Shown piece by piece: positions 51,528-54,322 of a DNA stretch of 64,000 nt. The notes beneath the pieces were generated by a model. The model did not search any database, had not been told where the DNA came from, and saw only the letters and a list, made by a program, of their open reading frames with translations. The DNA is taken from contig VGVZ01000011.1 in the NCBI GenBank assembly GCA_016873805.1, forward strand, positions 1-64,000, given 5' to 3'. Both the position numbers and the translations under genes were made by a program. The DNA comes from Ignavibacteria bacterium. Its GTDB lineage: Bacteria > Bacteroidota > Ignavibacteria > UBA10030. Every line of letters begins with the position of its first letter. Positions within the stretch are counted from its first letter, which is position 1.

Positions 51528-52385
51528 TTATCCGAGATAGGCACGGAGCTGTTTGCTGCGGGATGCATGGCGCAGTCGGCGGATCGCCTTTTCCTTGATC
51601 TGTCGGACTCGCTCTCGAGTCAGATTGAACTTCTCGCCGATCTCTTCAAGTGTGAGCGAGTGCTCCTGGTCGAGCCCAAAGTAGAGTCGGATCACCTGAG
51701 CCTCTCTGTCGCTCAGTGTCGCCAGGGCTCGGCGCACTTCCACTTTGAGGGACTCATCCATCAAAATGTGATCGGGGGAAGGCTGGCGCTGATCCTGGAT
51801 CACATCGAGCAGGCGGTTATCTTCCCCCTGTGCAAACGGGGCATCCATTGAAAGATGCCGACCGGAGATCTTGAGCGTGTCGGAGACCTCGAACAGGGAC
51901 ATATCGAGTTCTTCCGCCAGTTCGCTGGCACTCGGTTCGCGCTCGAATTCCTGCTCCAGCGTGCTGAACGCTTTCCCTATCTTGTTCAACGCGCCGACGC
52001 GATTCAGCGGCAGGCGCACGATACGCGACTGTTCCGCAAGCGCCTGGAGAATCGATTGCCTGATCCACCACACCGCGTACGAGATGAATTTGAAGCCACG
52101 GGTCTCGTCAAACCTTTTGGCCGCCTTGATCAATCCCAGATTCCCCTCGTTGATCAGGTCGCCGAGCGAGAGGCCCTGATTTTGATACTGTTTCGCCACG
52201 CTGACAACGAACCGCAGATTCGCCTTTGTGAGCTTCTCAAGTGCTTTTTCGTCCCCCTTCTTGATGCGTCGCGCAAGATCGATCTCCTCCTGGGGAGTCA
52301 GCAGTTCGACCTTCCCGATTTCCTGAAGGTACTTGTCGAGGGACTGGCTCTCTCGATTCGTGTATTGTTTGCTGATCTTTACCAT
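51528..52385 (-). CDS. rpoD: Primary RNA polymerase sigma factor (short RpoD/SigA)
   Basis: A 285-residue sigma-70 factor made of regions 1.2, 2, 3 and 4 only; region 1.1 and the non-conserved insert are missing, as in Bacteroidota primary sigma factors. Region 2 reads [18 protein letters not shown] then [19 protein letters not shown]. In region 2.4 the E. coli Gln437 is kept but Thr440 is Leu. Region 4 has [19 protein letters not shown]. Its promoter preference should match the TTG/TANNTT signals found at five sites in this window. Confidence 0.95.
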
Positions 52386-52476: not shown

Positions 52477-52749
52477 TCATGCTTTTTGGAGATCGATGCG
52501 GTCCACAATGCCGACGATGCTCGCATCGACGGGAGCCATCTCGACGGGCAGAGGGATGACCGCTTCACGCGCCGTAATGTAGAACACAATTTCTCCCGGT
52601 CCCGCTCCCACCGTGTCGACAGCCACGATTGGACTCCCGACCGGCTTTTGCTTCGCGTCCAGGGGCTGAACAAACTGGAGCTTGAAGCTATGTAGCGACT
52701 CTTCCTTGCGCGTCGCCCATATCGTTCCGATGACTTTCCCGAAGAACAT
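52477..52749 (-). CDS. EutN/CcmL family microcompartment vertex protein, copy 1
   Basis: A 90-residue protein with the MFFGKVIGTIWATRKEE start and AVDTVGAGPGEIVFY signature of BMC-P (EutN/CcmL/PduN) pentamers, which close the vertices of bacterial microcompartment shells. Encoded 20 bases after its paralogue, so they are made together. No hexameric shell gene (BMC-H or BMC-T) is in the window, so shell formation from here alone is impossible. A 91-base gap separates it from the downstream sigma-factor gene. Confidence 0.9.
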   Translation of the reverse strand: MFFGKVIGTIWATRKEESLHSFKLQFVQPLDAKQKPVGSPIVAVDTVGAGPGEIVFYITAREAVIPLPVEMAPVDASIVGIVDRIDLQKA

Positions 52750-52769
52750 GAAAGATCCCGATTGAACGA

Positions 52770-53045
52770 TCAGGTTTTTACTACGATGTCGAGTTTGTCC
52801 ACCACGGCAATAATGATGGCATCGACGGGCCGGTTCTTTGTCAGCGCCGTTTGCCGGGCCGAACTTCCTGAAGTCACCAGCACAACATCTCCCACGCCGG
52901 CCTGCACGCTGTCCACGGCGACAACAAACGTATCCTTCAGCTTGTAGTCCAGATCAATGTGTTTGACGATCTGGAGCTTCATCCCGACAAGCTCTTCGTC
53001 TTTTCTTGTCGCCCAAACAGTTCCGACCACTTTTCCCAAAAACAT
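52770..53045 (-). CDS. EutN/CcmL family microcompartment vertex protein, copy 2
   Basis: A 91-residue BMC-P protein, start MFLGKVVGTVWATRKDE and signature AVDSVQAGVGDVVLV. I chose the ATG at 53045 because it aligns with the paralogue; the frame opens further upstream only by 17 residues without support. The two copies share the same layout but differ at many positions, suggesting distinct vertex roles. About 95 bases downstream of deoB. Confidence 0.9.
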   Translation of the reverse strand: MFLGKVVGTVWATRKDEELVGMKLQIVKHIDLDYKLKDTFVVAVDSVQAGVGDVVLVTSGSSARQTALTKNRPVDAIIIAVVDKLDIVVKT

Positions 53046-53140
53046 AATGTTTTCCTTCGAGTCGGGTTCAGTGCACTTCTGAGTGCGTTCGAACACTAGA
53101 GAACAGACGTATCGGAAGCTCTAATCGTTCCTCCCGATTC

Positions 53141-54322
53141 CTACGCGACAGTACTGAAAAAACTCCGGCCGGCAAGTTCGTTGGCTGGAACCTCGAAGAA
53201 CTCTGCGACGGTCTTCCCGGCATCGGCGAACGAGTCCCTCGTACCGAGATCGATGCCTCTCTTGCCGTTCCTTCGATAGGTCAACAGCGGGACGAATTCC
53301 CTCGTGTGATCCGTGCTCGCGTCCGTCGGATCATTTCCGTGATCCGCGGTCAGGATCAGCAGATCATCATGTCCCAGGCACTCGATAATCCGCGGCACGG
53401 CTGAATCAAACGCCTCGAGCGCACGGGCAAAACCGCTCGGATCCTGACGATGACCGTAGAGCATGTCAAAATCGACGAGGTTCGCGAAAATAAGTCCCAA
53501 GGAATGAGAGGTCGAGTATTGGACAATCCTCTCGATCCCTTCCTCGTTTGATTTCGTATGTATTTTTTCGGTCAATCCCCGACCCGCGAACAGATCATCG
53601 ACTTTTCCAATACTCACCGTCGGGATGTTCCGCTCTGTCAACAAATCGAGCACGGTGGATGATGGAGGTGCAACGGAATAGTCCCGTCGATTCCCCGTTC
53701 TTACGTAGGCACCGGACGTGCCGATGAACGGACGTGCAATTACCCGACCGACTCGATGATCACCGACAAGAATCCTCTCACGCGCGATGCTGCAGAGGCG
53801 ATAGAGTTCTTCCAGCTTAATGATCTCCTCATGCGCCGCAATCTGGAAGACCGAATCGCCGGATGTGTAGAGGATCGGGTATCCGGTCCTCCGATGCTCA
53901 TCTCCCAATTCTTCAATGATCTGGGTTCCGGATGCGGGCTTGTTTCCAAGATATCCCTTGTGTCCTGTCGCTCGCAAAAAGGCAGTGAGCAAATCCTCAG
54001 GAAATCCATTCGGATAGAGCGGAAAGGGGCGCTCGGTAACAAGACCGGCGATTTCCCAATGACCGGTGGTACTGTCTTTGCCGGCAGACTGCTCGGCCAT
54101 CTTTCCGTAGCATCCTTCCGGAACGCTTGCCGGAGGAACGCCCTCAACCGGAGCGATGTTCCCCAGACCCAAACGCTGCAGATTCGGCAGATTCAATCCG
54201 CCGACGGCGATGCTGACGTTCGCGAGAGTATTCGCCGTTGCATCTCCGTAGGCCGGTGCGTCGGGAAGTGCCCCAATGCCCACGCCATCAAGGACGACGA
54301 ATATGATCTTTTTCTGAGCCAA
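53141..54322 (-). CDS. deoB: Phosphopentomutase
   Basis: Interconverts (deoxy)ribose-1-phosphate and -5-phosphate in nucleoside salvage. An alkaline-phosphatase-like fold with KIIFVVLDGVGIGALPDAP at the start (metal Asp), the catalytic threonine in SAGKDSTTGHWEI, and HGNDPT near the C-terminus (metal Asp/His). The start is TTG at 54322 with no clear ribosome site; there is no ATG near. Beside two BMC vertex genes, the product fits deoxyribose/ribose phosphate metabolism. Confidence 0.94.
   Translation of the reverse strand: MAQKKIIFVVLDGVGIGALPDAPAYGDATANTLANVSIAVGGLNLPNLQRLGLGNIAPVEGVPPASVPEGCYGKMAEQSAGKDSTTGHWEIAGLVTERPFPLYPNGFPEDLLTAFLRATGHKGYLGNKPASGTQIIEELGDEHRRTGYPILYTSGDSVFQIAAHEEIIKLEELYRLCSIARERILVGDHRVGRVIARPFIGTSGAYVRTGNRRDYSVAPPSSTVLDLLTERNIPTVSIGKVDDLFAGRGLTEKIHTKSNEEGIERIVQYSTSHSLGLIFANLVDFDMLYGHRQDPSGFARALEAFDSAVPRIIECLGHDDLLILTADHGNDPTDASTDHTREFVPLLTYRRNGKRGIDLGTRDSFADAGKTVAEFFEVPANELAGRSFFSTVA

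Follow-up and report, generated by a model that had tools for sequence, protein, structure and literature searches.

Genome-dispersed bacterial microcompartments (BMCs) have been catalogued in Ignavibacteriae as types FRAG1-7 (Sutter et al. 2021, PMC8217296): their shell genes lie in up to six places, their pentameric vertex proteins (BMC-P) form a triplet, and most of their genes are far from known enzymes, with no signature enzyme or function named in the main text of that catalogue. SPU metabolosomes are defined by the enzymes DeoC and RpiB, with PduL in most, though not all, of the loci described, and some genomes with the Haliangium ochraceum (HO) BMC carry distal pfam01791 enzymes with N-terminal extensions resembling encapsulation peptides (PMC8217296). 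For FRAG, the main texts found report no distal DeoC. Here we analysed the first 64,000 nucleotides of an Ignavibacteria bacterium contig (VGVZ01000011.1; the window, part of contig C11 in a 99% complete Ignavibacterium genome of 3.2 Mb and 60 contigs), in which two BMC-P genes of the EutN/CcmL family stand in tandem between deoB and a sigma-70 gene. This EutN pair very probably provides two of the three vertex proteins of a complete, genome-dispersed (FRAG) BMC, which would metabolise deoxyribose-5-phosphate in the manner of SPU metabolosomes.

Profile searches upheld the names and coordinates that an earlier sequence-only reading of the window had given to deoB and the tandem EutN pair. They also agreed with its observation that other shell genes and a BMC-type aldehyde dehydrogenase (ALDH) or PduL were lacking nearby, as the window gave no additional hit to a shell gene, nor any acylating ALDH, when the whole genome was searched (PF00936, PF03319, PduL, Aldedh). 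The gaps between deoB, EutN1, EutN2 and the sigma-70 gene measure 95, 20 and 91 bp, and the four genes thus form an operon-like run. The open reading frame of EutN1 spans 52770-53096, with the ATG at 53045, where the PF03319 domain begins, as its likely start. The closest solved structure to its product is 5v74, annotated EutN/CcmL, which we take to be the H. ochraceum shell; the HO BMC likewise has a BMC-P triplet, but it also has a main locus, whereas BMC-H and BMC-P genes share no place here.

The pair had been labelled an orphan, a label that no longer applies: the PF00936 search of the rest of the genome returned two BMC-H genes and one BMC-T gene, and PF03319 genes number exactly three. 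The shell parts list is complete, with two BMC-H, one BMC-T and three BMC-P distributed over contigs C2, C11 and C18 (Table 1). These genes occupy four separate places (two on C2, 42 kb apart, and one each on C11 and C18), and nowhere do BMC-H and BMC-P occur together. Of the two earlier alternatives, the one in which the BMC locus is split and the rest of the shell is encoded at other sites has therefore held up, also because these parts co-occur with the pair in relatives. Dispersed shell genes, no main locus combining BMC-H and BMC-P, a BMC-P triplet and an Ignavibacterial host are all FRAG traits; the arrangement is one that had already been catalogued (PMC8217296).

Relatives found by sequence are mostly named Ignavibacteria or Ignavibacteriales metagenome-assembled genomes. 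Co-occurrence was assessed in 120 related draft genomes, with the presence lists for EutN, ALDH and BMC copied by hand from profile-search outputs. PF03319 was found in 73 of the 120, mostly in exactly three copies, corresponding to the tandem pair plus a single gene, and PF00936 in 74, mostly as two adjacent BMC-H genes with or without two further hits. Presence of the two families agreed in 117 genomes (72 with both, 45 with neither). It is hardly credible, then, that the pentamers act outside microcompartments, tied to phosphopentomutase or to transcription through the adjacent sigma factor. Use outside microcompartments had been raised in the sequence-only reading. In favour of this alternative is the close packing of the pair against deoB and sigma-70, as in an operon; it is opposed by the co-presence of EutN and PF00936, by the dispensability of deoB and by the persistence of the sigma gene where the pair has been lost. 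EutN1 was used to fetch 36 named Ignavibacteria loci: the EutN1-EutN2 tandem was conserved in all 36, with sigma-70 downstream in 35 and deoB directly upstream in 22. In some relatives an antitoxin-like (~100 aa) and PIN-like (~140 aa) gene pair, recognised by eye, separates deoB from EutN1 (L060:9252-9973, L061:9301-10004, L066:3534-4271, L068:9258-9985); the window has no such pair. A cytidine deaminase considered for this position was rejected, the genes being read by eye as an AbrB-like and PIN-like pair.

Three enzymes encoded away from the EutN pair, namely ALDH, DeoC and a second RpiB, carry extensions of BMC-targeting type, in favour of the sugar-phosphate (deoxyribose) compartment guessed at earlier; of the enzymes then thought worth seeking, deoC and an acetylating ALDH were found and PduL was not. 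The acetylating ALDH is the nearest further component to the pair, on the same contig, 34 kb off and outside the window. Its C-terminus comprises a long linker and then a helix, TSDEIDRIMREFERR, whose hydrophobic moment is significant (0.5% of shuffles as high). The linker and a GxGISEEEVDRIIKEF-type helix recur in 29 of the 30 ALDH homologues listed (its own included), and the match to the thirtieth (L211) runs into a contig edge, stopping short of the helix. The four other ALDHs of the genome were set aside, as no helix-bearing extension was seen at either end. Across the 120 relatives, 66 had both EutN and ALDH, 7 EutN alone, 1 ALDH alone and 46 neither. Some relatives (G008, G021, G025 and G031 of g9, and some f6 genomes) encode a second BMC type, either by itself or in addition to the scattered one; its genes are clustered and include four for BMC-P and one for a divergent ALDH of 24-30% identity. 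It accounts for most of the exceptions to the EutN/ALDH association, incomplete drafts being another source.

DeoC was identified with TIGR00126, since PF01791 alone is too broad and also matches class I fructose-bisphosphate aldolases. The N-terminal extension opens with a helix-like stretch, MDRATILRLIEEVLKES, and contains a Cys module, CCKDGICTDNLCLVHN. When the region upstream of the aldolase core was read in 72 relatives, 47/47 DeoCs whose genomes also encode ALDH and BMC proteins had the extension, against 0/25 of the remainder. The former comprise 46 genomes with EutN and ALDH plus G051 (BMC and ALDH, no EutN in the draft), and the latter 24 genomes without EutN and ALDH plus G008, which has the other BMC type only; G057, among the 25, shows a helix-like start upstream of DeoC and no Cys module. 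In the 47 aligned extensions, Cys23, Cys28, Cys33, His36, Gly48, Ala49, Arg51 and Gly57 are each found in 45-47 sequences, and residues 23-37 form a near-invariant CxxxxCxxxxCxxHN module that may bind Zn or an Fe-S cluster. Searching the genome with the extension found no other protein carrying this module.

Genomes with the system mostly encode two RpiB proteins, one of ~150 aa and one in a frame of at least 215 aa. The long form was present in 33 of 37 genomes with the system versus 3 of 24 without it (33/4/3/21); the four system genomes lacking it include three incomplete drafts. Of the three long frames outside the group (G021, G027 and G057), the one checked, in G057, has no homologous extension. 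The N-terminus of the long RpiB matches Escherichia coli EutQ (31% over 65 residues, E 3e-7 in a single comparison), which suggests a shared BMC-associated module.

Table 1 Shell genes, candidate cargo genes and flanking genes of the dispersed system (locations without a contig are positions in the window).
Feature	Location	Strand	Basis	Remark
deoB, phosphopentomutase (deoxyribose-1-phosphate to deoxyribose-5-phosphate)	53141-54322	minus	TIGR01696, 464.5 bits (cut-off 341.2)	
BMC-P no. 1 (EutN1; EutN/CcmL family)	52770-53045	minus	PF03319, 101.2 bits	
BMC-P no. 2 (EutN2; EutN/CcmL family)	52477-52749	minus	PF03319, 99.7 bits	
Primary-type sigma-70 factor	51528-52385	minus	Pfam Sigma70 regions 1.2-4	Flank marking the site of the pair, not a BMC part
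Two tandem BMC-H genes	C2:90.7-91.3 kb		PF00936 profile search of whole genome	
BMC-T, PduT-like	C2:133.2 kb		Two PF00936 domains	Directly behind PduS/RnfC-like Fe-S flavoprotein gene
BMC-P no. 3 (EutN3)	C18:48.5 kb		PF03319	Between phosphohexomutase gene and dprA
Acetylating ALDH	C11:87027-88712		TIGR02518 best model, 585.9 bits (cut-off 620.1)	Nearest PDB entries 5j78, 3k9d
deoC	L177:9434-10300 (G000:C43)		TIGR00126	66-residue N-terminal extension before aldolase core
Second (long) RpiB	L312:6696-7373 (G000:C3)			77-residue, EutQ-like N-terminal region

The set of parts recalls SPU metabolosomes, which likewise combine a DeoC-type aldolase (pfam01791/TIGR00126), RpiB (pfam02502) and AldDh (pfam00171) with BMC-H, BMC-P and BMC-T as described in PMC4207490 and PMC8217296. 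The differences are that shell and likely cargo genes are unclustered here, spread over at least seven places (two on C2, one on C3, two on C11 34 kb apart, one on C18 and one on C43), that PduL was not found, and that many relatives have deoB next to the BMC-P genes. Because signature enzymes and shell genes do not share one locus, we class the system as a FRAG organisation with an SPU-like core; it departs from the FRAG types of the catalogue's main text, which are assigned no signature enzyme, in that DeoC, acetylating ALDH and RpiB, all bearing targeting-type extensions, are tied to the shell. A compact counterpart was found in L087 (Anaerolineales, Chloroflexi), where RpiB, DeoC and ALDH cluster with BMC-H, BMC-P and BMC-T and the shell proteins are related to those here. 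The DeoC extension of L087 combines a helix-like start with a CPDC motif at the place of the Cys module and with GASRLSATLGV (here GADRISSGVGV), and the RpiB and ALDH of L087 also bear comparable extensions. A similar compact cluster occurs in L093, a Bacteroidetes metagenome-assembled genome; in both, the ALDH helix is N-terminal, whereas it is C-terminal here.

In all twelve EutN-less relatives examined at deoB, this gene and the sigma gene remain on the same stretch, and no EutN pair was detected in the interval. In one of them, G024, 18 encoded residues in this interval are 67% identical to the end of EutN1 in a sister species. Position and strand are those expected, but the search was very small (E 0.0009) and the match no more than suggestive of an EutN1 remnant. 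Four relatives of genus g8 have lost the shell, ALDH and intact DeoC extension together, degenerate stretches of the extension persisting in three of them (G024, G026 and G028), and their sister genomes G007 and G030 keep all three. In G026, deoB is itself broken by several stops. Scattered genes and the loss of the system in several relatives would fit a pair that is the relic of a decaying BMC, standing beside deoB by chance with no compartment in operation. We consider this very improbable: here all three BMC-P, both BMC-H and ALDH are intact, 66 of 120 relatives from across the class retain them as a set, and true loss takes shell, ALDH and DeoC extension at once. Every fragment, moreover, holds a conserved place, with EutN1-EutN2 in tandem throughout, the PduS-like gene adjoining BMC-T in 8/8 genomes, and the phosphohexomutase gene adjacent to EutN3 in 12/12, followed by dprA in 11/12 and no dprA found in the twelfth.

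In the scheme that we infer for encapsulation, substrate, flux and electron path, deoxynucleosides from DNA would yield deoxyribose-1-phosphate, to be converted to deoxyribose-5-phosphate in the cytosol by DeoB, or by another mutase or kinase; DeoB carries no targeting extension and presumably works outside the shell. Deoxyribose-5-phosphate would enter a shell of two BMC-H, three BMC-P and, in many genomes, a PduT-like BMC-T, and DeoC inside it would release glyceraldehyde-3-phosphate and acetaldehyde. The acetylating ALDH, kept within by its C-terminal helix, would turn acetaldehyde into acetyl-CoA before it could leak, and the second RpiB, with its EutQ-like N-terminus, may act on ribose-5-phosphate. 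In genomes that have them, the PduS-like protein and a BMC-T with its Cys could carry electrons through the shell and recycle NAD+. The nearest chains to the BMC-T here are the PduT-like 3nwg and 3pac; on alignment its Cys falls at a Cys of 3pac, replaced by Ser in 3n79, that is the Fe-S ligand of PduT. A PduS/RnfC-like Fe-S protein gene just upstream completes the likeness to PDU, from which the system differs in that BMC-T falls below the PduT model cut-off (120.9 versus 250.3 bits) and its surroundings showed neither a diol dehydratase nor a B12 locus.

Several observations weigh against this assignment. PF06130 finds no PduL in the genome, which bears on CoA recycling (other phosphotransacetylases were not searched for), and the BMC-T/PduS module is apparently missing from about half of the shell-bearing genomes (two versus four PF00936 hits). 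The hydrophobic moment of the DeoC helix is not significant, as 24% of shuffles match it, a value also obtained for a PduP reference. No more than 2-3 changes of the extension are required on the DeoC tree, so that Fisher values for co-occurrence overstate the independent evidence. Nor does deoB track the shell: it is kept in shell-less relatives, and in about ten shell-bearing genomes of family f3 nothing passes the deoB cut-off. On this distribution deoB was rejected as a required part; it is an old, conserved neighbour rather than an obligate partner, and the link to deoB alone is no proof of substrate.

The shell-bearing genomes without deoB would also fit a real compartment with a main substrate other than deoxyribose-phosphate, in which ALDH serves another source of acetaldehyde or a short aldehyde and the DeoC extension serves, for example, metal binding or regulation. 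Likewise, the Cys/His-rich module makes that extension more than a simple targeting helix, and most FRAG shell genes are described as far from known enzymes in the main text of PMC8217296. This seems improbable to us, given that, besides DeoC, no acetaldehyde-forming enzyme with a shell-tracking extension was found here, that DeoC and RpiB are the SPU signature pair (PMC8217296), and that comparable extensions occur in the compact SPU cluster of L087.

FRAG BMCs were left without a function in the main text of the 2021 catalogue (PMC8217296) because enzymes were not adjacent to their shell genes. For the Ignavibacterial members we propose a testable one, the conversion of deoxyribose-5-phosphate to acetyl-CoA, on the basis of targeting extensions and co-occurrence in place of gene neighbourhood. 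This suggests that BMC loci may stay functional without clustering, and the combination of tag and phylogenetic profile offers a route to what is enclosed in other compartments that are scattered or listed as of 'unknown function'. A wider and rather doubtful proposal is that Ignavibacterial FRAG BMCs at large form no separate functional class but are SPU-type deoxyribose-phosphate organelles whose locus has dispersed, their parts remaining tied together by protein tags, in which a putative metal or Fe-S site in the DeoC tag (Cys23/28/33, His36) would, with the PduS-like protein and BMC-T, form a link to outside electron carriers.

Two further features of the shell genes were recorded. The third BMC-P gene (L010:8509-10252; G000:C18) lies 4 bp behind a phosphosugar mutase gene of the phosphohexomutase family, a pairing seen in all 12 genomes checked. 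The second BMC-H (L008:10387-10941; G000:C2) and its relatives (L213-L241) continue through a variable linker into a conserved C-terminal module, MTVHELRxxARxxxGLxIxGRxISRANKxxLIxELMK, which matches Rho_N weakly and below threshold, with E from 0.02 to 0.0009; this shell protein may have a tail that binds nucleic acids.
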